Below are positions 746-27,270 of a DNA stretch of 64,000 nucleotides, piece after piece. A model generated the notes under the pieces. That model saw only the letters and a program-made list of their open reading frames with translations. It was not told the DNA's origin and searched no databases. Source of the DNA: Anatilimnocola floriformis. Its GTDB lineage: Bacteria > Planctomycetota > Planctomycetia > Pirellulales > Pirellulaceae. Both the position numbers and the translations under genes were made by a program. Positions within the stretch are counted from its first letter, which is position 1, and each line of letters opens with the position of its first letter. Location: positions 3,782,001 to 3,846,000 of the forward strand of contig NZ_JAMLFW010000001.1 of assembly GCF_024256385.1 (NCBI RefSeq), read 5' to 3'.

Positions 746-1137
746 CAAGGTAAGTTTGTGTGGTGACGTGGTTAAAGATTAGTAGCCTAACCCCGCACCT
801 TGTACGTAAAAACGCTACATCGTTTTCCCGCCAGGCATCTTCCACTGCAAATTTTTCAGTTGTAGCAACGGCCACGACATACAGACCATCGCGCGTCCTT
901 TAGAATCGAAACATGCAACCCTGTACGCAAATCGCCGCTGATCGAGTTGAACCTCGCTCCGAATTTCTTATGGAGTCGAGTCAATAAACGACGCTAGTGG
1001 CGGAACCCCTCCAATCTCGCAGAGTGGATTGATTGACCCCGCGCTACTTATCACGTTACCGCTGAAATGGCAGCGCAAAACCAGCGAGCTGCTATACGAA
1101 ACGCTGCCAGCGGAAGGTCGTTAACGGTTGCCCGCTT

Positions 1138-1201
1138 AACCCGCCACAATCGCCCCGGCGACTCTGAACGGAGTCTCTCGCCTCCAGCCTTGTGGCGGGT
1201 T
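1138..1201 (-). repeat. REP-like palindromic element, copy E1
   Basis: A 12-bp perfect inverted repeat, AACCCGCCACAA (1138-1149) and TTGTGGCGGGTT (1190-1201), encloses an inner hairpin GACTC/GAGTC (1160-1175) extended by GGC/GCC. A T-run follows on the plus strand (1203-1207), so it may also terminate transcription. Similar sequence occurs at 11563-11620, 15473-15540 and 27197-27270, with a shortened form at 11917-11954. No gene is supported on either strand here. Confidence 0.7.
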
Positions 1202-1553
1202 GTTTTTGAGCAATTGTTGTGTGGAAGTTCCGGCAGGGGTTTCACGTGCAAGAGCCCTGGGCTTTCGAAAAATTGTGCGGGATTTTTCACGACCGAATTT
1301 CGGGCTTCGCCTGCAGGTAGGTGGGGTAGTCGATTGGCAAACGGTTGCGATTGGCGAACTACCTGCAATTTCGTTCATTTAATAAACTAAAGTGTAAGCA
1401 AGAATCGAATTGGTGAGGTCAATCGACTGGCGGAACTCCTACTTCAGGAGCGCACTGCTGGCAAGGTGGCGGGTCAGGCATCCGCCTTCTCACATTGCTG
1501 AGTAAAGCGGCGAGTGCTTCTCCGTCGCGAAAAACTATTGCAGTGTTTTCAAA

Positions 1554-8994: not shown

Positions 8995-9228
8995 CTATTT
9001 ATTGGTTGGATCTGCCGCTTTGATGCCTGATTCGCTGGTACGTCGTGCGGCTTCCGCATCTCTCTTCGCTTCTTCCAGCCTAAAACATACTCCGTACACG
9101 TCCGCGGAGTGCCAGAAGAACTGAGAATGAACAGCGCCGTCTATCGTCGCGAGCACGCTGTTTTCAGCGTCCAGCAATTCATACCGAGGCGGGAACTGCT
9201 TCGTTTGCTTCCAAGTAGGGCTGCTCAT
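8995..9228 (-). CDS. small protein of unknown function, family W (copy 1)
   Basis: 77 residues. Not a named family to me, but clearly paralogous to the protein at 26907-27113: both have 'R-x-E-L-x-D-A-E', 'VLATI', 'QFFW', 'CFRL-x-EA' and 'RDAEAA' in the same order and spacing. The layout (charged strand, ATI strand, aromatic strand, C-terminal helix) resembles family X below and suggests a tiny beta-beta-beta-alpha fold. Its start is ten bases downstream of a frameshifted small frame (9238-9440), so the two may have formed an operon. No ribosome site stands out. Confidence 0.6.
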   Translation of the reverse strand: MSSPTWKQTKQFPPRYELLDAENSVLATIDGAVHSQFFWHSADVYGVCFRLEEAKRDAEAARRTSESGIKAADPTNK

Positions 9229-11864: not shown

Positions 11865-11916
11865 GCCCGAATAATGGCAGGTAAAGCGATATTCGACTAT
11901 CGGGAAAAACGCTACA

Positions 11917-11954
11917 AACCCACCACAAGGCTGACAGCAGGTTTTAATCTGGCA
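11917..11954 (+). repeat. REP-like element without its hairpin core (copy E5)
   Basis: ACCCACCACAAGGCTGACAGCA is followed at once by GGTTTTAATCTGGCA. In copy E4 the same two flanks are separated by the hairpin AGAGAATCCGTTCAAAGTCGCCGG. This is either the element without its core or the product of its loss. It overlaps the 3' end of the family X gene at 11944. Confidence 0.55.
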
Positions 11955-12177
11955 GTCCCTTCACAACGGCAATCTTCGCTCGCAGCAGTGTCGACTCTTC
12001 GCCGGATGCCGGTGGCGCACCATGGAGCAACTGGCTGGTTTTACGGGTCCACTGGTAATAGTGCCCTTCGCCGGTAATCACGGCGATTTGGCGGCCCATG
12101 GTGGTGTCGAACAGCTCCAGGCCAGATTTACCTGCTGCGCGCCACACGAATCGCTTGGCATTGATTGCTTCGTTCAT
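11944..12177 (-). CDS. small protein, family X (copy 1)
   Basis: 77 residues. Shares with the proteins at 12613 and 21649 the order: aromatic start 'RFVW', '(R/G)-x-E-L-(I/F)-D', 'R-x-(A/I)-AVI', a Trp-Arg pair, 'LLHGAP', '-STL-x-x-AK-x-x-VVKGLP'. This is strong paralogy across the full length. Predicted small alpha/beta fold, no catalytic motif, no signal peptide. The start codon sits eight bases after the conserved 5' leader (copy A), whose end GCGGGAG serves as ribosome-binding site. Function unknown. Confidence 0.65.
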   Translation of the reverse strand: MNEAINAKRFVWRAAGKSGLELFDTTMGRQIAVITGEGHYYQWTRKTSQLLHGAPPASGEESTLLRAKIAVVKGLPD

Positions 12178-12184
12178 CTCTCGA

Positions 12185-12240
12185 CTCCCGCAAAAGAATT
12201 CGGGCGAGGGGCCAATGGCGGTTAGCGGCCCGCAGCGAAT
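12185..12240 (-). promoter_or_regulatory. conserved 5' leader, copy A
   Basis: On the minus strand: ATTCGCTGCGGGCCGCT, then GCCATTGGCCCCTCGCCC, then GAATTCTTTTGCGGGAG, ending eight bases before the ATG of the gene at 11944. Nearly the same 55 bp is found in front of the genes at 15271, 20520 and 21649. GGGCC and GGCCC can pair as a short hairpin. Candidate promoter-proximal RNA leader or operator. Confidence 0.75.
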
Positions 12241-12548
12241 AAGTTGTGTAGGAACAGCATGATGTATTCAGTGCTATGCTGTCTGTCGCTGAAAACGCTA
12301 CCCTGAAATTTTCTGATACTAAAAAACGCTAAACGAACGGGGCAACATCCTCTAGGGGCCTGTGCGAGCGCAGTGACCAACGATGTACCCGATTGCTTAT
12401 TGGCAGTCCAGGTGTAGCGATTCATTCGATGCGGCGCAGGCAGCGAGATTATTTTGGTGGCCCCATTACGTGGATCTGAGCTGGGAACGTGGAATCAGGG
12501 GGAAGTCGTGTTACTCACGTCGCGAGGCTCTTCTTCGCCAACAATTTC

Positions 12549-12640
12549 CCATGCCCCAGGCCTCACCTACCGGTCGATCTGCTCCAGGGGCCAGAAGAAC
12601 CTCGACTCCCACTCACCGCCAGCGCGGTAATACGAGTGGT
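12549..12640 (-). repeat. dispersed repeat F, copy 2
   Basis: Related to 10305-10410; on the minus strand it encodes 'ESRFFWPLEQIDR' and a stop. It overlaps the tail of the family X gene at 12613 in another frame, so that gene's last ~30 residues, which lack family similarity, may be read-through into the repeat. Confidence 0.5.
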
Positions 12641-12927
12641 AGTCTCTTAAAGTAATGTTCGGCAACTCCGGGTGGGCGACTCGTTGAGTCTTGTTGTGGC
12701 CATTCGTTAGGTAAGCCATTTACCACTTGGTTCTTAGCCTGCTGAAGCGTACTGCAGACACCTTCAGCCGAGGGTACGCCGTGAATGAGCCAACTGGTAC
12801 TTCGCTGCCAGCACCATTCCGGGCTGACAAAGGCAATCACAGCCACACTACGATTCACCATTTTCGCGTCGATCAATTCGATTCGGTCGGGCAGGCCAGA
12901 CGGTTTGATCCAATGATATCGCTGCAT
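12613..12927 (-). CDS. small protein, family X (copy 2, extended tail)
   Basis: 104 residues, ATG at 12925-12927 after CGGAGTGAG. Residues 1-75 are family X ('RYHWIKPSGLPDRIELID', 'SVAVIAFVS', 'SWLIHGVPSAEG', 'STLQQAKNQVVNGLP'). The remaining 29 residues are unlike other copies and lie over repeat F, so the original stop was probably lost. This copy lacks the conserved leader. Confidence 0.6.
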   Translation of the reverse strand: MQRYHWIKPSGLPDRIELIDAKMVNRSVAVIAFVSPEWCWQRSTSWLIHGVPSAEGVCSTLQQAKNQVVNGLPNEWPQQDSTSRPPGVAEHYFKRLPLVLPRWR

Positions 12928-13115
12928 TTCTCACTCCGTGAAAACGACCACCGTCGGTGCGGGATATTGCCAATTCTCACCAATCCTCGTCTCGAGAGCT
13001 GGGTCAGCTGGCCGCGCTCTTGGGGCACTGGCAAGTGTTGTGCCCGATACAGGTCGTTGTCGAGCAATCAGGCAACAAAGCACATACTGGATTGCACCGC
13101 CTCCACTCTGTCTCC

Positions 13116-14426
13116 TTAGTCGTCCTCTGCCTTTCGTTTTGACTTGCTCGCGATCGGCATTTGGGAATTCCATTGATCCCACAGATCTTTGAGTGTTTTG
13201 ACCTTCTCCGGCTGTTTCGTGGCGAGATTGTTTTTCTCTCCGATATCAGTGGCCAGGTCGTACAGTTCGGGCGGATCGTTGTTGGCTTCGCCATGGACCA
13301 GCTTCATGTCGCCATGCCTAACGGCCCACATGCCATCAATGCGCCAGTGAAGCGTCTGGTGCGGGCGCTCCTCGTTCTTGCCGGAGAGGTAAGGCAACAG
13401 ATTGACACCATCAAGTTTCCACATCGGATCGACGGCACCGCCCGCTGCCGCCACGCAGGTAGGCATCACGTCAAGTTGAACGACAGGCCGATCGTCAACC
13501 TTGCCAGCAGGAAGTTTCCCTTTCCACTGGACCATCCACGGCAGGCGCGTTCCTCCTTCCCAACAGGTGTGCTTACCCCCTCGGAGCACTCCATTCCCTT
13601 CGCGATTGGCGGGCGCCCCGTTGTCGCTGATGAAAAAGATGAGCGTATTCTCTTCCAACTTCAATTCGCGCAACTTGCCGAGCACGACTCCGACGGCGTC
13701 ATCCATTGCGGAAAGCATTGCATCAAACCGCTGACGACGCGGATTTTTGATTTGCTTGAAGCGTTCCAAATACTTCTCGGAAGCCTCGTGTGGGGCGTGA
13801 ACCGCGTTGAACGGAAGGAAGAGAAACCACGGACCATCTTTGTGTTGCTCAATCCAGTTTCCTGCACGCACGGCAAAGGCATCTGTCGTGTAGAAATCCT
13901 TATCGGCTACCGGTATTGATTTTGAGGATTCGCGGGAGTCAATGAAGCCCTTCGGCGTAAAATAAGAGCCCGGGTTGCCAAACACGCCAAAGTATTCATC
14001 GAAACCACGTTTCATCGGCAAATGCTCGTCGCCTTTGCCGAGGTGCCACTTCCCAACGATTGTCGTGGCGTAACCGAGCGCCTTCATTCGCTGGCCCAAG
14101 GTCGTCTCGGCCAGCGGCATTCCGCCTTCAGAAGTCATTAGGTTGTTCTCATGACCGAAACGTTGCTGGTAGCGTCCTGCCATCAATCCGGCCCGCGAGG
14201 GTGAGCAGAGTGGAGCCGAAACGTATCCGCTGGTGAATCGAATTCCATTGGCCGCGATGGAGTTTATGTTCGGCGTCGACACTTCCTTCATGCCATAGCA
14301 ACCCAGTTCTCCATATCCGAGGTCATCCGCGCAAAAGATCAGGATGTTGGGCTTGGCTGTCGCAGCGCCTGCTGCATGGAGTGCGAACGTAAGTACCAGC
14401 ATCCAGAAGGCAATGATGAGTTTCAT
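13116..14426 (-). CDS. exported type I sulfatase
   Basis: 436 residues with a cleavable signal peptide ('LTFALHAAGAATA'). The sulfatase start 'KPNILIFCADDLGYGELGCYG' supplies the metal-binding Asp pair. The formylglycine motif 'CSPSR' has Cys at residue 74, and 'GKWHLGKG' follows near 125. 'FFISDNGAP' and 'LRGGKHTCWEGGTRLP' complete the active site. Sulfatases of this class hydrolyse sulfate esters, in planctomycetes mostly of algal polysaccharides, after Cys is oxidised to formylglycine. Length is typical. The Lys-rich tail 'SKSKRKAEDD' is unusual. AAGGA precedes the ATG by about 11 bases. Confidence 0.9.
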   Translation of the reverse strand: MKLIIAFWMLVLTFALHAAGAATAKPNILIFCADDLGYGELGCYGMKEVSTPNINSIAANGIRFTSGYVSAPLCSPSRAGLMAGRYQQRFGHENNLMTSEGGMPLAETTLGQRMKALGYATTIVGKWHLGKGDEHLPMKRGFDEYFGVFGNPGSYFTPKGFIDSRESSKSIPVADKDFYTTDAFAVRAGNWIEQHKDGPWFLFLPFNAVHAPHEASEKYLERFKQIKNPRRQRFDAMLSAMDDAVGVVLGKLRELKLEENTLIFFISDNGAPANREGNGVLRGGKHTCWEGGTRLPWMVQWKGKLPAGKVDDRPVVQLDVMPTCVAAAGGAVDPMWKLDGVNLLPYLSGKNEERPHQTLHWRIDGMWAVRHGDMKLVHGEANNDPPELYDLATDIGEKNNLATKQPEKVKTLKDLWDQWNSQMPIASKSKRKAEDD

Positions 14427-14751
14427 CGTCAGTCGATTCCTTTTGTCATCGGTTGGTTAACGGACTGGCTCGCAGAGGTCTGCACGAGGTCAACTTGACT
14501 CTATTCTCGCCCGCTTCGCTTAAAACGAAGGTTGTCATTACTGCACTAACCGGCTACGGTCAGGCAGATGATCGGAGAGCTCTCGTGAGGCAACTTTCAA
14601 TCACCATTTAGTCTAACTGGTTGCCCCCGGTGGCGCTGACCGCCATGCTCGAAGCCTCGCCGCTGAATTGAGGGTAAGAGTAAAGTTGCGGGCCGCTGCG
14701 TTGCCGGGTAAACCTGTTAACAACAGGTGGACAAGCCACTGCGACACTCAA
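14427..14751. other. intergenic region, nothing recognised
   Basis: No supported gene. It should contain the promoter of the sulfatase at 13116-14426 (minus strand). Beyond it, at 14752, begins a response-regulator fragment. Confidence 0.3.
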
Positions 14752-14962
14752 TCAAGTCGCGTTGCACGGTCGGCGAAATCCTGGAGCGGCTTGATCGATT
14801 TTGGGGAGCGTCCGCAAACTTTTTGTCACTTCGTAGCCGTTCATCCCGGGCATTCCGATGTCCAGCAGGACGATTTGCGGCTTGAACGCCTTCGCTATTT
14901 CAATCGCAGTCGGTCCATAGAGTCGCTATGTTGGGACGGCCTGAACTTCGTCCGTGGCTTCA
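14752..14962 (-). pseudogene. response-regulator receiver domain fragment
   Basis: Minus-strand translation gives '[20 protein letters not shown]', '[20 protein letters not shown]' and '[10 protein letters not shown]'. This is the middle of a CheY-like receiver, with the phospho-acceptor Asp in '[13 protein letters not shown]'. Upstream it is cut by an in-frame TAG; downstream the family sequence ends and a stop follows at 14752. The N-terminal acidic pair and the rest of the fold are missing. A relic of a two-component gene. Confidence 0.6.
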
Positions 14963-15206
14963 CTAGAGGAAGTACGGATAATCATCGCGATACGACGAAC
15001 GAAAGCACCCCGAAGCGAACGCGGCAACATCCGCTTGGGGCCGCGCAAATTTGTCCGCCGACCAATTCACAGCAGGCGGATTCTACATACAGACAGCAAA
15101 TTGCCTTGTCAGGGAAAGTGCCACAATCACTCTGAGTTCATCGTGGTAGCTTTTCCGCGACATTGCTTTTCGCTGCAACCGTCGCCACATTGACTTTACT
15201 TAACCG

Positions 15207-15263
15207 ATTCGCTGCTGGCCGCTGAATGCCATTGGCCCCTCGCCCCAAATTTCTTTGCGGGAG
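15207..15263 (+). promoter_or_regulatory. conserved 5' leader, copy B
   Basis: ATTCGCTGCTGGCCGCTGAA, GCCATTGGCCCCTCGCCCC, AAATTTCTTTGCGGGAG, ending seven bases before ATG 15271. Same element as copies A, C and D. A TTGACT hexamer lies just upstream (15190-15195). Confidence 0.75.
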
Positions 15264-15270
15264 ACGTGGA

Positions 15271-15429
15271 ATGCTGCGTTACCAATGGCTTAAGTTTTCC
15301 ACGTTGATTGAAAGCGTGGAAGTGGTCGGCAGCATAAATAAGGCCGCGATTGCTGAAATCGTGAGCGTGGCACGAGACTTTCGGCGAAATTCCGGGCTAC
15401 TGCACAATGTAACCCAGCAGGAGGCATAA
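15271..15429 (+). pseudogene. small protein, family X (copy 3, degenerate)
   Basis: From ATG 15271: 'MLRYQWLKFSTLIESVEVVG' and later 'GLLHNVTQQEA', then a stop after 52 residues. It aligns with the N-terminal two thirds of family X ('RY-x-W-x-K-x-S-x-L', 'LLH'). A piece like the missing C-terminus ('GAGGEKTLEELRG') is readable just after the stop in another frame, so a frameshift is likely. Its leader is still well preserved. Confidence 0.5.
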
Positions 15430-15472
15430 CCAAACGGCTGGCGCAGGAGGAGAGAAAACTCTTGAAGAATTG

Positions 15473-15540
15473 CGAGGTTAGCCTGTCGCTCCGGTGACTT
15501 TGGACGGACTCTCTCACCGTCAGCCGCGTGACTTGGTTTG
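15473..15540 (-). repeat. REP-like palindromic element, copy E3
   Basis: GGTGACTTTGGACGGACTCTCTCACC (15493-15518 region) flanked by CAGCC and GTGACTTGGTTTG. In minus-strand orientation it matches E1 and E4 (CAAACC..GGCTGACGGTGAGAGAGTCCG..). It lies between two converging small genes. Confidence 0.6.
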
Positions 15541-15549
15541 CTGTCGAAG

Positions 15550-15765
15550 CTAAAGCGCGTTATTGGCCGAGTCATCAACCTTTGATGTGGATGTAGCAAA
15601 GTCCCTTCGATCCGTAATCGCACGAATCATTTCATCTTCTGATTCGTTTTCCGATTGCGCTGGATCGCCATGCAAGTGCATGACATTCCGATACTCGCGA
15701 ATCAAGGAATTGCGATCACTAGTCCGTACTGACCAGAAGTCTTCTAGGCGTTTCGTATGAGTCAT
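15550..15765 (-). CDS. small protein, family Y (copy 1)
   Basis: 71 residues from ATG 15763-15765, with GAGGA four bases upstream. Paralogue of 24045-24242: both run 'MT-x-T-x-R', 'DRN-x-LI-x-x-YR', 'HLHGDPA-x-SENES', 'EM-x-RAI-x-D'. The central 'LHLHGDPAxSENES' is almost invariant and could bind a metal or a partner. The C-terminus differs between copies. Helical, no signal peptide, function unknown. Just downstream of the family Z pair. Confidence 0.65.
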   Translation of the reverse strand: MTHTKRLEDFWSVRTSDRNSLIREYRNVMHLHGDPAQSENESEDEMIRAITDRRDFATSTSKVDDSANNAL

Positions 15766-15824
15766 AGAGTCCTCAATTAATCGTTGAAAAGTTTGGCATA
15801 CACTCGCCAAGACAAATGTATTCA

Positions 15825-16097
15825 TTAAATCCAAGTGATGTGGATTGTATTTTCGCGTGCACCGAATCCGACAATCTTCGCCATTCGCTCCGAGCAGCCA
15901 GGGAATTGCATTCTGACCGGCTCACGATGGACGCGGAGGGATTTCAGTTGTTCAATGCGCTCAGGAGTCAACTCCTCACCGTTGAATTTAATCACTATTG
16001 ACGAACTACCGCCTCCATCCCAAGTAGCGAGTCCTTCGAAGTTGTCGATTCGAACTAACCCAGTGTGAGCGAGGATTCCGGATACGTGGTCTGACAT
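15825..16097 (-). CDS. small protein, family Z (copy 1)
   Basis: 90 residues from ATG 16095-16097, the start being chosen to match the 90-residue neighbour. Shared features with 16230-16502: 'GL-(V/A)-R-(I/M)-(D/N)-(N/D)-FE', '(A/S)-x-WD', '(S/L)(I/L)V(I/L)KF(N/D)G', 'L(T/S)-x-E-(R/K)', and the C-terminal 'KIVGFGARENTIHITWI' or 'ATIIGYGGRDNSFYLTWV'. Two beta strands, a helix and a beta hairpin are suggested. Unknown function. Confidence 0.6.
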   Translation of the reverse strand: MSDHVSGILAHTGLVRIDNFEGLATWDGGGSSSIVIKFNGEELTPERIEQLKSLRVHREPVRMQFPGCSERMAKIVGFGARENTIHITWI

Positions 16098-16229
16098 AGT
16101 CTTTTCCAATCCAATTTTACGCCGCTCGTTGCCAACGCAGAAAAGGAACTGCGCCGCAGAAATGTTGTTCAAAATCTTAGGAGTTGAGCACCGCTACACC
16201 CGCGGGCTTTTCGTTGTCGATGCCGACCA

Positions 16230-16502
16230 CTACACCCAGGTCAGATAGAAAGAATTGTCGCGACCGCCGTAGCCAATGATCGTCGCTTTCCGTTTCCCGC
16301 CTGCCGCAAGCTGCAAAATGACGGGGGAGTTGCCAGCCCGAAATCGATTCAGCTGGTCGCGCTTCTCAGATGATAACCTGGTGCCGTCGAACTTCAGCAC
16401 CAACAAATCGCTGCCACTTAGATCCCAGCTTGCTTGAGACTCGAAATCGTTCATTCGCGCCAAGCCCGAATTCCGGCTGCCTTGTAGGATGCTTTGAAAC
16501 AC
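16230..16502 (-). CDS. small protein, family Z (copy 2)
   Basis: 90 residues from GTG at 16500-16502 preceded by AAAGGA. Tandem paralogue of 15825-16097 (about 35-40% alike by eye), conserved most at the start ('GLARMNDFE') and at the end ('GYGGRDNSFYLTWV'). An ATG two bases upstream is out of frame. Its tandem position with families Y and FKBP on the same strand suggests one transcription unit, 17.0 to 15.5 kb. Confidence 0.6.
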   Translation of the reverse strand: MFQSILQGSRNSGLARMNDFESQASWDLSGSDLLVLKFDGTRLSSEKRDQLNRFRAGNSPVILQLAAGGKRKATIIGYGGRDNSFYLTWV

Positions 16503-16571
16503 ATCGAGATCCTTTTCAAAAAAGCTGGATTCCGAAAGCGGCGGAGTTGCCCCTATCCAGCGAACTGGGGT

Positions 16572-17009
16572 TTACGCTTCGCCACCGGTATCAAACTGCG
16601 GTTTCGACAAATTCGCCTCTGATGACGAATCGACGGACACTAGGTAGACATCCAGCTTCGCAGGGCGTCCAGCACGCGGATGGTTGCCATCTAAAACAAC
16701 CGAATGCGTGTTGAGTTGGACGATACGGGCCCGAGGGCAATGGGTGGGATCGGAAGTTCGGCGAGTTAGTAGCATTCCCATTTTTGGTGAGCACTTGATG
16801 TGTAGGCAACTTCGCGAGACTCTTCTTATCAGCTGATTCTGGACATGTCCGTAGGCTTCGGCGGGTGATAGCGTCATACATTTCTGCTCGCCAGAATGCA
16901 TACCCAACACGTAACGGCTCAAGCCAGGCAGGAGATGGTCGCTACCGACAATGAATTCCAACACCCGAGGTTTTGTCGACCGGGAATCGAGTTCCGTTGC
17001 ATCGTGCAT
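16572..17009 (-). CDS. SlyD-like FKBP peptidyl-prolyl isomerase, 5' end damaged
   Basis: 145 residues from the ATG at 17007-17009. Closely paralogous to the intact protein at 24419-24901: 'RVLEFIVGSDHLLPGLSRYV', 'GMHSGEQKCMTLSPAEAYG' and the SlyD insert-in-flap motif 'LDGNHPRAGRPAKL', ending 'DSSSEANLSKPQFD'. Known role: proline isomerisation and chaperoning. Homology to the paralogue continues upstream of this ATG ('AQLHATKTLRYTH' against 'AQIGDRVRIRYTH') to about 17048, but the equivalent start codon is lost. The present ATG lies inside the first beta strand, so the protein is probably not properly made. Confidence 0.75.
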   Translation of the reverse strand: MHDATELDSRSTKPRVLEFIVGSDHLLPGLSRYVLGMHSGEQKCMTLSPAEAYGHVQNQLIRRVSRSCLHIKCSPKMGMLLTRRTSDPTHCPRARIVQLNTHSVVLDGNHPRAGRPAKLDVYLVSVDSSSEANLSKPQFDTGGEA

Positions 17010-17632
17010 GTGTGTGTATCTCAGAGTCTTGGTTGCGTGAAGCTGAGCAATCGGTAAAGGATGCTGGAGCGGCAGAAGTAAACGTGGAGCAAGGCAACGC
17101 TACCCGGCTGTCTTACGAAGACGATTCGTTTGACATCGTCTGGTGTGCACAAAGTCTGTATAGCCTGCCGAGAATGTTCGATTGCTTGACTGAAATGCGA
17201 CGAGTTCTGAGACCCGGCGGTTATCTGTGCATTTTGGAAAATGATTCGATGCATCATGTGCTGCTCCCATGGCCGCCGTCACTGGAAGTGCGAATTATCG
17301 CGGCGGAGCTCAAAGAAGCTCGCGAGACGGCTCGTCAGCCAGAAAAGTACTACTCAGGGCGCTGGCTATCGCGGCTCATGCGAAGGGCTGGTTTGCGGCG
17401 AACGCAGGAACGAAGTTTCGCCAGCACGCGGCAACAACCCTTGAGCGCCGCTGCGACGGAGTATTTCGCTGCATACTTGGAATCGCTGCGAAAGCGTGTT
17501 CGGAAGCACTTGTCTCCCGCTGCAAGCCATCGGCTAGATCAATTACTTGACCCTGATAGCCGCCGCTGTCTTTGGAAGCAACGCGACTTCGTTGCAGTGA
17601 GCCTCGACCGCCTCGTCTGGGCCCAGAAGTAA
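16973..17632 (+). pseudogene. SAM-dependent methyltransferase lacking its N-terminal SAM motif
   Basis: From about residue 27 the frame is class I methyltransferase: 'VEQGNATRLSYEDDSFDIVW' (motif II), 'SLYSLPRMFDCLTEMRRVLR' then 'PGGYLCILE' (motif III). A C-terminal helical part runs to 'WKQRDFVAVSLDRLVWAQK'. The glycine-rich SAM-binding motif I and about 50 residues before it are absent; instead the frame enters the antisense of the neighbouring FKBP gene. The nominal ATG 16973 therefore lies in foreign sequence. A deletion or recombination joined two broken genes near 17045. Confidence 0.65.
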
Positions 17633-17637
17633 GGAAT

Positions 17638-18510
17638 TCAGCCGTTCACAATCTCCCCACCATTCGGATGCAGCACCTGGCCCGTTAGGTACGATGAAGC
17701 CTCTGTAGCGAAAAACACAAAACAACTCGCGACTTCCGCCGGTTCACCGGCTCGTGCCATCGGCACGTCAGATCCAAATTTCTGCACCTTGTCTCTCGGG
17801 AAAGTCGAAGGAATCAGCGGTGTCCAGATCGGCCCCGGCGCCACGCCGTTTACCCGAATGCCCTTATCGACCAACTGCATCGCCAGCGAACGCGTAAACG
17901 TAACTATGGCACCTTTTGTCGATGAATAGTCTAACAACTCTGGGCTGCCGCGATACGCTGTGACTGAAGTGGTGTTAATAATCCGCGCCCCCTCCTGTAG
18001 ATGCGGCAACGCGGCCTTCGTCAAAAAGAACATACCGAAGATGTTCGTGCGGAACGTTCGCTCGAGTTGTTCCGCTGTGATGTCAGCGATCGATTTTTGC
18101 GGGTGCTGCTCGGCAGCGTTGTTCACGATGATATCGATCCGCCCAAACTTTTTGATTGTCGCATTCACCGCCCGCTGACAAATACTCTCCTTTCCGATGT
18201 CGCCGGCGATCAACAGGCAGTCGCGACCAAGGTCGTTAATCAGTCGCTCAGTCTCTTGTGCATCTTCGTGCTCATCGAGATACATCACGACCACTTTCGC
18301 GCCTTCTCGCGCAAACGCGATCGCCACCGCACGACCGATGCCACTGTCGCCGCCGGTAATGATTGCAACCTGATCATGTAGCTTTCCCGTTCCAGCGTTC
18401 GCGGGCCGATCGGCTTGCGGCAACGGTTTCATCTTCGCTTCGATGCCCGGTCGACGATTCTGATGTTGAGCGGGATGAATGGCCTGCTTCTGCTGTGTTT
18501 TCGCGGGCAT
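17638..18510 (-). CDS. short-chain dehydrogenase/reductase (stress-type SDR)
   Basis: 290 residues, ATG 18508-18510 with GGAG ten bases upstream. NAD(P)-binding 'AIITGGDSGIGRAVAIAFAR', 'IVNNAAEQHP', catalytic 'YSSTKGAIVTFTRSLA' with Tyr and Lys, and C-terminal 'ASSYLTGQVLHPNGGEIVNG'. The ~40-residue basic N-terminal extension before the Rossmann fold is typical of the YdaD/YhdF-like general-stress SDR group. Substrate unknown; cytosolic. Stop codon five bases from the end of the convergent methyltransferase remnant. Confidence 0.85.
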   Translation of the reverse strand: MPAKTQQKQAIHPAQHQNRRPGIEAKMKPLPQADRPANAGTGKLHDQVAIITGGDSGIGRAVAIAFAREGAKVVVMYLDEHEDAQETERLINDLGRDCLLIAGDIGKESICQRAVNATIKKFGRIDIIVNNAAEQHPQKSIADITAEQLERTFRTNIFGMFFLTKAALPHLQEGARIINTTSVTAYRGSPELLDYSSTKGAIVTFTRSLAMQLVDKGIRVNGVAPGPIWTPLIPSTFPRDKVQKFGSDVPMARAGEPAEVASCFVFFATEASSYLTGQVLHPNGGEIVNG

Positions 18511-18766
18511 TGCTGCTTGTCTCCAATGCAAGTAGGGGGCGAAGTCACAGGTGTAGCGGCAAAATGCGTGCCGCTATCCGTTCGTCAAATTGGAGAAACC
18601 TCTTCGTTCAACGGAGCTACTAGCGCGCTCAACTGCCGCCCACCCAGCAACGTTAATTCTGAACAATTCTTTCCCTGATTCTCAAAACAGCGATTGATGT
18701 TCTTCCGAACTCATTGCTCATGTGTGTATGTCCGCAGGACGGATTACCAAACACGGAGCACGAACC

Positions 18767-19009
18767 ATGAGCAGCGAACGAAAGAGCGGGGCGGTCAATC
18801 AGAAGGCATTTGACAAGGTCATTCGCGACAATCTTTCGCCGGAGGGCACAGCCGCATTGGTGATGGCGTTGCAACCAGCCGGATCGGTTCCGACTACGAC
18901 GCGTGAAGGTGAACGGGCGATCGATGAGGTTCTTTGGTTCCGCGACACGCTGCTCGACATGATCGGCGTGGAGACCTTCAACCGAACCATGGATGAACTC
19001 GGGTTCTAA
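18767..19009 (+). CDS. small conserved-looking hypothetical protein
   Basis: 80 residues from ATG 18767 with ACGGAG eight bases ahead. 'VNQKAFDKVIRDNLSPEGTA' and 'AIDEVLWFRDTLLDMIGVET' are amphipathic helices. Clean protein-like composition with unbroken frame. No family named. Followed after 87 bp by the HARE-HTH gene on the same strand, possibly co-transcribed. Confidence 0.55.
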   Translation: MSSERKSGAVNQKAFDKVIRDNLSPEGTAALVMALQPAGSVPTTTREGERAIDEVLWFRDTLLDMIGVETFNRTMDELGF

Positions 19010-19096
19010 GCCGAAACGCCCACGTGGGCGTCGCTCGGCGGTGGTTCGCCGGGCCTGATGATGGCAGCCGATCCATCCCGAACCAAGGAACGAACG

Positions 19097-19558
19097 ATGT
19101 CCAAGAAAACCAGCTCGAAGACCGCTACCAAGAAGAGCACGAAGAAGGCCGCGCCGAAGAAGACCGCGCCGCCTGTGGCAACGCCCAAGCCCGGCGAATG
19201 CCCCAAGGGTGGCTCGCACGAATGGACTGAGGAAGGCACCGAGACTTACTGCTCGAAGTGCAAGGAACCAAAGGTGGCGAAGTCCAAGCGAGCCGCCAAG
19301 GAAAGGTCCGCGAAGCCGGCGAAGAAGGTAAAGCTATCCGCCCTCGACGCCGCGGCCCAGGTTCTCGAATCCAGCGAGCAGCCCATGAACGCGAAGGCGA
19401 TGATCGAAGCCTTGGCGACGAAGGGCCTCTGGTCGAGTCCCCGCGGCAAGACGCCCCACGCTACGCTTTACAGCGCGATTATTCGCGAGATCTCGGTGAA
19501 GGGGAAGGAATCCCGGTTCAAGAAGAAGGACCGGGGGAGCTTCGCATTCAACGGGTAA
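19097..19558 (+). CDS. HARE-HTH domain protein with Lys/Ala tail and Cys knuckle
   Basis: 153 residues from ATG 19097 (AAGGA ten bases upstream). Residues 1-35 are a Lys/Ala/Thr-rich histone-like tail. Then comes a Cys/His knuckle ('ECPKGGSHEW', 'YCSKCKEPK') and a second basic stretch. The C-terminal ~75 residues form a winged helix: 'ALDAAAQVLESSEQPMNAKA', 'HATLYSAIIREISVKGKESR', 'FKKKDRGSFAFNG'. This matches the HARE-HTH (HB1/ASXL) fold, a DNA-associated domain found in RNA polymerase delta and chromatin proteins. Likely a nucleoid or transcription-associated protein. Its 3' end is duplicated at 25.4 kb. Confidence 0.75.
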   Translation: MSKKTSSKTATKKSTKKAAPKKTAPPVATPKPGECPKGGSHEWTEEGTETYCSKCKEPKVAKSKRAAKERSAKPAKKVKLSALDAAAQVLESSEQPMNAKAMIEALATKGLWSSPRGKTPHATLYSAIIREISVKGKESRFKKKDRGSFAFNG

Positions 19559-19570
19559 AACGTTGGCCAC

Positions 19571-19605
19571 ACGACGCCGCACGTTTGCCGCGTGCGGACG
19601 TTTTG
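19571..19605 (+). terminator. Rho-independent terminator of the HARE-HTH gene
   Basis: CCGCACG (19577-19583) pairs with CGTGCGG (19591-19597), extended by ACG/CGT, with TTTT at 19601-19604. Its counterpart after the remnant at 25.4 kb keeps the pairing despite base changes. Confidence 0.8.
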
Positions 19606-19953
19606 TCGTTGGTGGGCCGAGTTCCCGCGCTCCGGGGTCGTCGCAATCGCGGGCCACTAGCGCAAAGACACGGGCGGCGCTGGTGTTTGCCCGAGAGAAT
19701 GTGCAGCGATCCGCTGACTTACTTTCCCAAGTCTCTGAAGCGTTCATACGACTGATTCAGTGGGTGCGTTTCCTTCCTACCTTCGATCATTGTCGCGCAC
19801 CACTCTGCTAAGCGCAAACCGAGTCTGCGAGATGCATTCAGCTCCCGATCCTCATTCGGTTGCCCGTCGACAACTGCGGTGTAATGAGCGGAGAACTTAA
19901 CGCCCGTGTAGTCGGTCGGGTGCGCGGGATTCGCGGGTCATAGCCCGATTATA
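19606..19953. other. intergenic region, nothing recognised
   Basis: The first ~80 bp (to about 19680) belong to the segment duplicated at 25.5 kb (TTGGTGGGCC, GGGCCACT, GCGCAAAG). The rest has no supported feature. Confidence 0.4.
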
Positions 19954-20172
19954 TCAGGCCCGCTTGTGCGTCGCATTGTGCTGGGCGATTGCCGCCAAAA
20001 CCCCAACCCGCGCGGTGTGCTCGTCGGAGTGCGGAATGGAATTGCGAAATGCTTCGCAGACTGGACACCACCACTCGCCCCAGAAGCCTGGCCGGCCAAC
20101 CATCAAACGAACAACGTATGCCAGATCGCCTACCTCTGCCGTGTAGGTGTCCTTCCTGTGCTCGAGAGTCAT
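19954..20172 (-). CDS. small Cys/His protein
   Basis: 72 residues: 'VGRPGFWGEWWCPVCEAFRN' and 'DEHTARVGVLAAIAQHNATH'. A CPVC pair plus a His-containing helix could make a mononuclear zinc site. No paralogue seen in the window. Weak ribosome site. Plausible but unproven gene. Confidence 0.45.
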   Translation of the reverse strand: MTLEHRKDTYTAEVGDLAYVVRLMVGRPGFWGEWWCPVCEAFRNSIPHSDEHTARVGVLAAIAQHNATHKRA

Positions 20173-20353
20173 CGCGCCAACCCGTTCAAGTTATAGAACT
20201 GCCGCAATTCAGCGGCGTATCGGGATGGAACGGATCGTAGATCGCCGGAAGGTTTCGATCAGTACGATTACAGACAATACCGACAAAAAATATGCCGGTG
20301 CCAAAACATGACCCATACTTCGGCGTGGAAAGACATCTGCCCCTGCTCTCCGC

Positions 20354-20380
20354 CCCCAGCATTTGCCCTGCTGGGGTTTT
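20354..20380 (+). terminator. Rho-independent terminator-like hairpin
   Basis: CCCCAGCA (20354-20361) pairs perfectly with TGCTGGGG (20369-20376) and is followed by TTTT. No intact plus-strand gene lies directly upstream, so it may belong to a lost gene or insulate the downstream leader C. Confidence 0.65.
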
Positions 20381-20454
20381 CTATGCGCAACCCGCATGTG
20401 TCAGGCAATTACCTTGCGTTCCCGTCGTTTCGTGGGACGATGCAGCCACAACCT

Positions 20455-20511
20455 ATTCGCTGCGGGCCGCTGATTCGTGTTTGGCCCCTCGCCCCGAATT
20501 CTTTGCCGGGG
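20455..20511 (+). promoter_or_regulatory. conserved 5' leader, copy C
   Basis: ATTCGCTGCGGGCCGCTGAT, TTTGGCCCCTCGCCCC, GAATTCTTTGCCGGGG, ending eight bases before ATG 20520. Here the leader precedes a zinc-ribbon gene, not family X, so the element is not tied to one protein family. Confidence 0.75.
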
Positions 20512-20519
20512 ATCGAGTA

Positions 20520-20690
20520 ATGCAGGATGCGCCAGTTTGCCCGAAGTGCGGCTCCCACGAAATCGCTGTGTTTGAGCGGGACAGGCTCAAAGCCGAAGCT
20601 GCTGGCGAAAAGCTGCCGGAAGGGGCTTCTAGTGTTTGCCAGTGCATTCCCTGCGGTGCGATGTTCACTCGCCGCGCCGCCGAAGATTAG
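20520..20690 (+). CDS. small zinc-ribbon protein
   Basis: 56 residues from ATG 20520, directly after leader copy C. 'DAPVCPKCGSHEIAVFERDR' and 'VCQCIPCGAMFTRRA' form a two-knuckle zinc ribbon (C-x2-C ... C-x-C-x2-C). Intact relative of the frameshifted copy at 10103. Probably cytosolic; binding partner unknown. The 3' end overlaps the convergent PAS fragment by 26 bp. Confidence 0.65.
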   Translation: MQDAPVCPKCGSHEIAVFERDRLKAEAAGEKLPEGASSVCQCIPCGAMFTRRAAED

Positions 20691-20874
20691 CGGTTTGGCC
20701 GGTGAGGAATTTGGGGGCATGCTGCGAAAAGACAAACTCGACATACGGTTGGGCGAAGAATTCAGACTTGCGGTAGCCCAGAACGCGGGTGAAGCTGGGG
20801 TTCACTTGCTTAAAACACCCATCAAGGCCGGCCAAGCTGTGTAGATCTCGTGAAACTTCGAAGAAGGTTGGCAT
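20665..20874 (-). pseudogene. PAS-domain fragment of a sensor protein
   Basis: 69 residues: 'FFEVSRDLHSLAGLDGCFKQ', 'VNPSFTRVLGYRKSEFFAQP', 'YVEFVFSQHAPKF'. This is the N-terminal two thirds of a PAS domain as found at the start of planctomycete hybrid kinases. It is then lost into unrelated sequence and a stop. No kinase part nearby. A relic. Confidence 0.55.
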
Positions 20875-21010
20875 TAGTCACTTCCGTGAGACGTCGCAAT
20901 GAATTCAGATCCTACCCAATCCGCCGAGGTAACTATTGCAACGAGGAGATAATCGTCTTTCGAATGACTCGGAATGGCGGACCGAGTGCTGGCATAGCCG
21001 CCGTTTTCGA

Positions 21011-21208
21011 TTAGACGTTCAATCCCGTGGCGTCTCTGCCGGCAAATACTGCGTGAACACCGCACCGCATTTTTTTGCACTGCTGCAAGGTGTTGACTTT
21101 CGTAGTCCGAAACGGTTCTCCTTCCGGCTGTAGCCAAGGGACGGTAGCGATTTGGCTCAGGTTAATGTCGCAACAGACAGGACATTGGAGAATGTCGGAT
21201 ATTGGCAT
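21011..21208 (-). CDS. small zinc-ribbon-like protein
   Basis: 65 residues. 'SDILQCPVCCDINLSQIATV' at the N-terminus and 'TLQQCKKMRCGVHAVFAGRD' later, so two Cys pairs as in the neighbouring mini zinc ribbons. The C-terminus may be frameshifted. Unknown function. Confidence 0.4.
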   Translation of the reverse strand: MPISDILQCPVCCDINLSQIATVPWLQPEGEPFRTTKVNTLQQCKKMRCGVHAVFAGRDATGLNV

Positions 21209-21310
21209 ACGTTCAGCTTAATGGTTTAACAACTCGCGGCGGCGATAAATGCCCGAAGTGCGTTGCGAATACGCTGATTCACCAGAATTTTTGTAGCTAG
21301 CGCTGGCAGA

Positions 21311-21627
21311 CTATGGTGACGATAGAGCATTGACGAGTGTGCAACACTCTTCGGTATGCAAACACGCTCCGTCAGCGCTCACTCGCATCGATTTGCTTGC
21401 GCGTGCTCCACAGCTAGTGCATTGGCGCATTTCAGGTCGCTTCGATAATGCGCAGCACTTCCCACACCGCCCCCAGATATTCGGCCAAGCCAAGTAACGA
21501 ATGGCCACGCAAAGTAACGGCCTAGCGAGAAATACGTGGGTGGACCCGGTACCATTGCTAGATTGTACTCCGGCTTGAACTTGCATTGCGCCGCGTATGT
21601 ACTAAATCGCTCGGCGCAAACTTTCAT
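21311..21627 (-). pseudogene. possible frameshifted Cys-rich small gene
   Basis: From ATG 21625-21627 one frame gives 'AQCKFKPEYNLAMVPGPPTY' and 'FAWPFVTWLG'. A neighbouring frame then gives 'RCGKCCALSKRPEMRQCTSC' and 'CLHTEECC', a zinc-binding pattern. A single indel near 21470 would join them. Weak evidence; no paralogue in the window. Confidence 0.25.
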
Positions 21628-21648
21628 CTCCTTGTGGCCTCCGCCGAG

Positions 21649-21915
21649 CTACATTTCGTTCTTCAGGCCGGTCAAGATACCGGCTTTGGCGTCCGTTAGT
21701 GAATCCGCAATACCCTCTGGCGGTGATGTGATGTGCATCATCGCAGTTTTTTCGCGTCTCCAGAGAAAGCGATGGTTGAGGGTGAGAATGACTGCAGCGC
21801 GCCGCGACGTAACTCGATCGATCAACTCCACTCGCTCGGGAAGATCGGAAGGCGTTATCCAGATAAAACGAACCTCAGGGTCACAAATTCTCGGTTCTAT
21901 TTTGTTTCGCCGCAT
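21649..21915 (-). CDS. small protein, family X (copy 4)
   Basis: 88 residues from ATG 21913-21915, chosen because leader copy D ends ten bases upstream. 'VRFIWITPSDLPERVELIDR', 'RRAAVILTLN', 'FLWRREKTAMMHITSPPEGI', 'SLTDAKAGILTGL' follow the family X order along the whole length. An earlier in-frame ATG (21954) would start inside the leader. Unknown function. Confidence 0.65.
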   Translation of the reverse strand: MRRNKIEPRICDPEVRFIWITPSDLPERVELIDRVTSRRAAVILTLNHRFLWRREKTAMMHITSPPEGIADSLTDAKAGILTGLKNEM

Positions 21916-21924
21916 GAATTGAAG

Positions 21925-21978
21925 CCCCGTAGAAAATTCGGAGCGAGGGGCCAAAGAGTTCAGCGGCCCGCGGCGAAT
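21925..21978 (-). promoter_or_regulatory. conserved 5' leader, copy D
   Basis: Minus strand: ATTCGCCGCGGGCCGCTGAA, TTTGGCCCCTCGC, CCGAATTTTCTACGGGG, ending nine bases before ATG 21915. The most diverged of the four copies, yet GGGCC/GGCCC and the closing purine-rich box remain. Confidence 0.7.
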
Positions 21979-22310
21979 AGATAATCCCCGAACATGGAAG
22001 CAGGGGGTGTACCTGGAAGTTTAGCAGATGCTGTGCCGTTTTTCGTGACCGGCTTCGCCAGCGTATGATCTCGCTTCGGCGCAACAGCGGGCGGCGGAAA
22101 ACTTCCAAGGACCATAACTCACAACGCAGCTCTTCGCCCGCGGCTTTTTCATTCGCTGAACCAGCCGGTTTGTGCCATGATCGCGCCTGAGCTAGACTGC
22201 CGAGGCATCCAGCTTCTCTCTGCAACGGTCAGGTTCCGCTTCTCTCTTCGGCGCTTACTTTTCGCGTCGATCCATTGACCGCAGTGACGACAACTCAGAA
22301 AGGTCACCGT

Positions 22311-26906: not shown

Positions 26907-27113
26907 ATGACCGGCAAGCCAACATGGACAGAGACGAAAGACCCGCTTCGGCGTGAGCTACGTGATGCGGAAGGGAATGTGCTTGCGACAATTAATCGTG
27001 ACGGGCACCGCCACCAGTTTTTCTGGGAGTCTGGTGGCACGTGCGGAACATGCTTCAGGCTGATCGAAGCGATGCGCGATGCGGAAGCGGCGCTAAGCCA
27101 GTCTGAAAATTGA
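26907..27113 (+). CDS. small protein of unknown function, family W (copy 2)
   Basis: 68 residues: 'LRRELRDAEGNVLATINRDG', 'HQFFWESGGTCGTCFRLIEA', 'MRDAEAALSQ'. Full-length paralogue of 8995-9228. The central 'GGTCGTCF' gives this copy a Cys pair that copy 1 lacks. No ribosome site is obvious. Unknown function. Confidence 0.6.
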   Translation: MTGKPTWTETKDPLRRELRDAEGNVLATINRDGHRHQFFWESGGTCGTCFRLIEAMRDAEAALSQSEN

Positions 27114-27196
27114 AAAAAACCGGCACATGCTTCGACATATACTGGGGCTGTCCGTGTGAGCAAACCCTGCCGGAATGCCCACAACGGCCAATCGAA

Positions 27197-27270
27197 AACA
27201 CCCACCACAAGCGGACAGCAAGAGAATCCGTTCAAAGTCGCCGGGCGCTTCCAGCGGGTTTAATCTGGCA
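27197..27270 (+). repeat. REP-like palindromic element, copy E4
   Basis: ACACCCACCACAAG, GACAGCAAGAGAATCCG, TTCAAAGTCGCCGGGCG, CAGCGGGTTTAATCTGGCA. Same order as E1 (minus strand), and its flanks match the coreless copy E5. Confidence 0.65.

Follow-up and report, generated by a model that had tools for sequence, protein, structure and literature searches.

The genome of Anatilimnocola floriformis (8.93 Mb, 99.49% complete) carries a short leader that recurs directly before the start codons of small genes. Its sulfatases and prepilin-like protein starts are in keeping with a planctomycete. We analysed a 64,000-nucleotide window of this genome (C1:3782001-3846000; coordinates without a C1: or L-number prefix are window positions), which contains four full copies, and searched for the leader in the rest of the genome and elsewhere. 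In total, the genome has 11 full copies, together with a decayed copy and a 5' half, a recurrence that exceeds chance. The genes behind the full copies belong to at least three unrelated families. We tentatively favour the reading, which we put a little short of an even chance, that the leader is a lineage-specific expression module that would be transcribed, would pair its ribosome site within a hairpin and would end at the start codon.

Recurrence of the leader before small genes

A nucleotide search with a single window leader returned 11 places in the genome. A covariance model (R1), built from five leader copies and run against the whole genome, reported 11 full leaders at 43.8-96.8 bits (E 1.3e-9 to 3.0e-26). 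The decayed leader scored 22.7 bits, and the next-best score in the genome was 20.1 bits. The copies are dispersed and present on both strands; with the decayed and half copies counted, 8 of 13 lie within C1:3.62-3.81 Mb, about 2% of the genome. Four window copies had been proposed by a first-pass annotation, and their positions were confirmed to within a few bases, with ATTCG at 12240 (-), 15207 (+), 20455 (+) and 21978 (-) (Table 1). The gene types it had given, three members of a family X and one zinc ribbon, were likewise confirmed, as was its short spacing to the gene, an ATG lying by eye 7-8 bases 3' of the purine box in all four copies.

The conserved boxes named in that annotation are present at the same four places, GCGGGCCGCTGA with 0-1 mismatches and TTGGCCCCTCGCCC with 0, 0, 0 and 1. 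With up to 2 mismatches, GCGGGCCGCTGA occurs at 24 window places versus 12.2 expected; with up to 3, TTGGCCCCTCGCCC occurs at 10 versus 8.65 expected, which is not above chance. Across the genome, a 19-base 5' box with at most 1 mismatch is found at 12 places, namely the 11 leaders and the 5' half, and nowhere else. Two further places appear at 2 mismatches and 33 more at 3, giving 47 places at up to 3 mismatches versus 11 for a reversed control. A 22-base 3' box with up to 3 mismatches matches 9 of the 11 leaders and no other place, and its control matches at 0 places.

An ATG directly follows ten of the 11 full copies, 62-65 bases 3' of ATTCG, and the eleventh (L014) has ATT at that position. 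The distance from TTGGCYCC to the ATG is 29-31 bases in the nine copies listed, and the leadered reading frames span 52-88 amino acids (aa) in nine copies. Only the 5' half is geneless: no gene was seen 3' of it, and it lies directly downstream of a family X gene that has no leader. The first-pass annotation had looked to copies at random positions relative to genes as evidence against its reading; because the full copies abut ATG or, once, ATT, that reading is not refuted.

Family X accounts for 8 of the 11 downstream genes, zinc ribbons for 2 and a third family, with the motif WGEWYCPLC, for 1. Members without a leader also occur in the genome (11 of 19 in family X, 7 of 8 in the third family, 1 of 3 zinc ribbons). 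For family X and the third family, Pfam matches were weak and sub-cut-off or absent, and no PHROG matched at E <0.1 among the 4 proteins searched. The zinc ribbons matched zinc-ribbon Pfam models below cut-off, and one of them matches an uncharacterised PHROG (E 2.6e-4). Two folds were predicted, one of them for family X, with mean predicted local distance difference test (pLDDT) values of 84.8 and 91.2. Neither had a match in a PDB fold search at E <=0.001, nor did the family X fold in a viral-model fold search at the same threshold, where its nearest models were uncharacterised phage proteins (E 0.019, template-modelling (TM) score about 0.6).

Other features of the window touch family X. 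By eye, the small proteins ELLDAENSVLATI... and ELRDAEGNVLATI..., encoded at 8995-9228 (-) and 26910-27113 (+), are possibly distant relatives. A 3' module, up to about 155 bp long and by eye carrying two terminator-like hairpins, is repeated at 1129-1287 (+), 27113-27270 (-), L012:2826-2979, L076:1351-1508 and L014:3809-3887. Its copies are up to 94% identical, and at 4 of the 5 places they immediately follow family X genes or remnants of them. Three segments alike at 58-62% (17671-18387, L009:6295-6974 and L081:2300-3022), of which the window one is a short-chain dehydrogenase gene, are each found no more than a few kb from leader or family X genes.

Independence of the leader from its genes

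We compared pairwise identities among the 11 full copies (55 pairs, 29 within families and 26 between). The 48-bp leader averages 83% identity within families and 86% between them, with a minimum of 76% over all pairs. The coding side (220 bp) averages 59% within and 54% between, and the 60 bp upstream average 55% and 56%, where random 220-bp stretches give 53%. The leader is therefore the conserved part, since both flanks are near the random baseline. Because its identity between families is as high as within them, these data support the earlier proposal that the leader has been kept or spread on its own.

Individual copies give the same picture. The leader of the zinc-ribbon copy L011 is 96-98% identical to those of the family X copies wA and L012, and the zinc-ribbon copy wC is closest to the family X copy L013 (94%). 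L011 and wA also share a 128-bp block of upstream DNA and leader (83.6%) that stops at the ATG. On the family X tree, presence of the leader requires 5 changes, and well-supported branches force at least 2 of them; resolution of the tree is poor, and the leader label is not significantly clustered on it (78 of 500 shuffles were as low).

Plain inheritance would make the leader an ancient 5' region of family X that accompanied its genes through duplication and came to stand before other genes by chance deletions, with no special role. The prevalence of family X genes behind the leader fits this, as do the wA and L012 units, which are 83% alike across leader and gene. However, the leader stays at 76% or above in 55 of 55 pairs while the coding and upstream sides are near the random baseline in most, more than half of the family X matches have no leader, and the label changes 5 times even on this poorly resolved tree. 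We regard plain inheritance as improbable.

The cross-family likeness, the clustering of copies and the 5' half suggest duplication and recombination inside the genome. Under the favoured reading, segments carrying the leader would have been duplicated and recombined, breaking at or close to the start codon. The leader may also capture small genes, as the first-pass annotation suggested.

These same observations would also fit a mobile promoter, or of a repeat like a miniature inverted-repeat transposable element (MITE), that carries a ribosome site, spreads by copying and is kept where it gives expression before a reading frame, the fold having no regulatory part. Copying would also fit the leaders that stand intact before two broken family X genes, one apparently frameshifted (L013) and one with its start lost (L014). 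Against such a repeat, the 5' box at up to 1 mismatch is restricted to the leaders and the half copy, and the upstream DNA averages only about 55% identity. We noticed no transposase, terminal repeat or target duplication associated with the leader, although no systematic search was made for them. We consider a mobile repeat rather unlikely.

Predicted folding of the leader and the ribosome site

Under the favoured reading, the module would be a 5' leader of about 63 nucleotides that closes with a ribosome site and start codon of its own, would include about 60 bp of upstream DNA in some copies, and would be transcribed from just upstream of the leader. In the RNA, GGGCC would pair with GGCCC as hairpin 1 and CUCGCYCCG with CGGGAGnCGAG as hairpin 2, whose latter arm contains the ribosome site. 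Translation would begin only once hairpin 2 has opened, through breathing, a bound factor, RNA pairing or heat. Control of translation through the leader would fit the near-fixed ATG distance, the inclusion of the ribosome site, the conservation above that of the flanks and the pairing of the ribosome site.

The pairing scheme is supported by several comparisons. Over 12 rows, 94.4% of cells pair, versus 37-54% after the partners have been shifted by 1-3 columns; these counts include the decayed copy and use an alignment fitted to the model, which biases them towards the scheme. In hairpin 2, the ribosome-site arm varies and pairs with the CUCGCYCCG arm in 92.5% of cells. The covariation score was reached by 17 of 500 shuffles. 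For the 11 full copies, on which the fold ensembles and junction tests were also run, the consensus energy is -15.2 versus -9.4 (standard deviation 2.9) for column shuffles, 13 of 300 being as low. Both hairpins are in the best single-sequence fold of 7 of the 11 copies, and the ribosome-site bases are mostly paired in the fold ensembles. These models make it plausible that the two hairpins are real in the leader RNA.

Other results count against a folded leader that controls translation. One of the 14 pairs is changed on both sides, with 3 such cells, one of them in the decayed copy. Shuffles scored as high for percentage paired (71 of 500), both-side pairs (443 of 500), cells of that kind (50 of 500) and pair types (426 of 500). 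The best folds of wA, wB, L009 and L015 differ from the two-hairpin scheme, and, taken singly, the copies fold no more stably than their dinucleotide shuffles (z -1.08 to +0.52). When the first codons are included, wD reaches z -4.1 while the others range from -1.44 to +1.08, for a mean of -0.75 over all copies. The intact leaders before broken genes and the promoter scan described below belong with these points. The earlier suggestion of a leader RNA thus gains modest support, in that GGGCC and GGCCC do pair and a second hairpin, absent from that annotation, pairs the ribosome site, whereas single folds are ordinary and several pair controls were not exceeded.

Upstream of the leader, several copies share by eye a block roughly of the form CGACAG...CGTCANNCTG, some 25-50 bases before ATTCG, which could represent promoter elements. 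A consensus scan found no sigma-70-like promoter at the window leaders, and a search with the wA upstream block matched, besides itself, only L011. A terminator-like hairpin, which may be a chance occurrence because the window has 19 such sites versus 11.1 expected, precedes copy C by 79 bases.

The first nine bases, ATTCGCYGC, do not differ among the 11 full copies and are unpaired in the model. Possible roles for them are a binding site or a partner in another fold. Together with the ordinary fold stability, this constancy would suit a DNA operator or special promoter bound by a protein, the hairpins being incidental to GC-rich sequence. However, the element passes unbroken into the ribosome site and keeps a nearly constant spacing to the ATG, neither of which an operator would require, and the ribosome-site arm still pairs where it varies. 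An operator is an unlikely explanation in our view, less so than plain inheritance.

The 5' box can also be read as coding ...LFAAGR-stop, as in an attenuator in which a ribosome stalled on a leader peptide opens hairpin 2. The changes GCT/GCC, GCG/GCT and CTA/TTA are synonymous, and a stop (TGA, TAA or TAG) is present in 10 of 11 copies. However, an in-frame ATG, GTG or TTG within 8 codons is found in only 4 of 11, and a stop lies no more than 4 codons upstream in L009, L012 and L013. The gene behind L012 is intact. This check also took in the half copy. For lack of a consistent in-frame start we rejected the peptide, which we hold to be highly improbable.

Two further folds were examined. 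A three-way junction between the 5' end of the leader and the first codons appears in ensemble folds, with 8 bp in wD, and is kept as a mere possibility. At least 4 pairs formed in 8 of 11 real copies versus 17-48% of trials with 100 random gene starts per leader, and the starts of two unleadered family X genes also pair with the leader 5' end. A duplex-energy test gave p = 0.00065 versus 218 control starts, with the L013 start placed one base off and the first codons shared by family X genes ignored. A long hairpin between ATTCG and CGAAT is the best fold of wA alone.

Distribution, neighbourhood and comparison with known systems

Among 39 relatives, R1 gave weak matches at E <=0.1 in 16 (17.7-25.6 bits) and no match in the same-genus genome. 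Among 391 other genomes of the phylum, it gave weak matches at E <=0.001 in 4 (24.7-25.7 bits); the filters were stricter in this search, so that weak matches were lost, and the two samples overlap. At none of the 8 places inspected, of 25 outside the leader's own genome, was a whole leader seen. L043 is similar to the 5' box and to some of the box after it, in apparently protein-coding DNA, L097 resembles the middle of the leader without an ATG, and L042 ends at a contig edge. An exact leader pattern had 0 matches in 84,980 species genomes, perhaps not including its own; the pattern is strict, matching by eye 8 of the 11 known copies. Seven stretches of viral contigs matched, none with the remainder of the leader, and plasmids had no DNA match to one leader with its gene. 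A planctomycete-wide regulon, as the first-pass annotation had envisaged, is not borne out, with no convincing copy in any of these genome sets.

The genes are similarly restricted. Family X has 19 matches in its own genome and 2 weaker ones in the same-genus genome (51 and 31.6 bits), with none in the remaining 38 relatives or the 391 phylum genomes. When genome contigs were scanned at the protein level with 4 family X members, none of the 53 candidate stretches proved to be a relative. For the third family there are 8 matches in its own genome and 0 in 39 others; for the zinc ribbon there are 3 in its own genome and a single weak one in another genus.

Table 1. Leader copies, associated genes and predicted elements.
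Feature	Position	Strand	Remarks
Leader copy A (wA), upstream of family X gene	12178..12240	-	R1 92.4 bits
Leader copy B (wB)	15207..15270	+	R1 84.1 bits
Leader copy C (wC), upstream of zinc-ribbon gene	20455..20519	+	R1 84.7 bits
Leader copy D (wD)	21916..21978	-	R1 43.8 bits
Decayed leader, then decayed X-like sequence	929..985	+	R1 22.7 bits; X-like part by eye
5'-half copy with upstream block	C1:3659994-3660012 (5' box); L078:1335-1404	-	Pattern scan, <=1 mismatch
Upstream block common to wA and L011, candidate promoter	12241..12301	-	83.6% over 128 bp including leader
Terminator-like hairpin before leader C	20354..20376	+	
Hairpin 1 of copy C (predicted)	20464..20487	+	GGGCC (20464-20468) / GGCCC (20483-20487)
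Hairpin 2 of copy C (predicted), holds ribosome site	20488..20517	+	CUCGCCCCG (20488-20496) / CGGGGAUCGAG (20507-20517)
Family X gene (wA), 77 aa	11944..12177	-	Start 63 bases after ATTCG
Family X gene (wB), shortened to 52 aa	15271..15429	+	
Zinc-ribbon gene (wC), 56 aa	20520..20690	+	CPKC...CIPC; zinc-ribbon models below cut-offs
Family X gene (wD), 88 aa	21649..21915	-	
Family X gene without leader	12613..12927	-	Frame continues to 104 aa
Third-family gene without leader	19954..20172	-	

The window contains other repeated elements. A type II hammerhead ribozyme at 19009-19073 (+) scores 58.8 bits (gathering 37) and is flanked by a 95-aa gene on one side and a lysine-rich HARE-HTH gene on the other. 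The unit is duplicated at C1:4.625 Mb, with the second ribozyme at C1:4625145-4625209 (L129). Several further small gene or segment families, an FKBP-like protein among them, have at least two diverged copies in the window, at 16576-17020/24423-24867, 15609-15774/24086-24251 and 19469-19667/25358-25567.

RNA thermometers and the expression platforms of riboswitches can mask the ribosome site. Hairpin 2 would likewise pair the ribosome site directly before the ATG, as modelled. In contrast to these classes, a scan of 11900-22300 against Rfam 15 (E <=5) gave 3 matches, none on the four window leaders, no wide distribution was found, and fold stability is ordinary. Leaders of erm and cat translational attenuators may also mask the ribosome site; this leader differs in having no consistently translatable peptide. 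Integron cassettes lie in the same direction, with attC sites between them and an adjoining integron integrase; the leader copies are dispersed on both strands.

Repetitive extragenic palindromic (REP) sequences, REPINs (mentioned in PMC8049555) and MITEs are short repeated non-coding DNA with hairpin potential, and REPs and REPINs are not known to keep a fixed position relative to start codons. The leader is also short, repeated and non-coding, with the potential to form hairpins. It differs in the near-fixed position and direction of its copies, about a dozen in number, relative to start codons. Closest in kind are mobile promoters, or promoter propagation (Matus-Garcia et al. 2012, as cited in PMC8049555), in which short alike non-coding copies stand before unrelated genes of one genome, as the leader copies do. 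Unlike in mobile promoters, the conserved part here is the leader on the ribosome-site side, up to the start codon, with upstream DNA common to some copies only. The literature listings, abstract openings and passages of PMC8049555 that we searched contain no description of this leader.

A broader version of the favoured reading, to which we give a lesser chance, is that the leader donates gene starts. Upstream DNA, folded leader, ribosome site and ATG would move together within the genome, making small reading frames into genes under one translational control and feeding a set of lineage-specific orphan small proteins. If so, a single genome would show a common, independently inherited gene-start module before at least three unrelated orphan families, and would offer a concrete, testable case of young small genes gaining both expression and a common control. 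Should the leader be a switch, it would be an RNA element known so far from one genome, a type overlooked by cross-species comparative searches.

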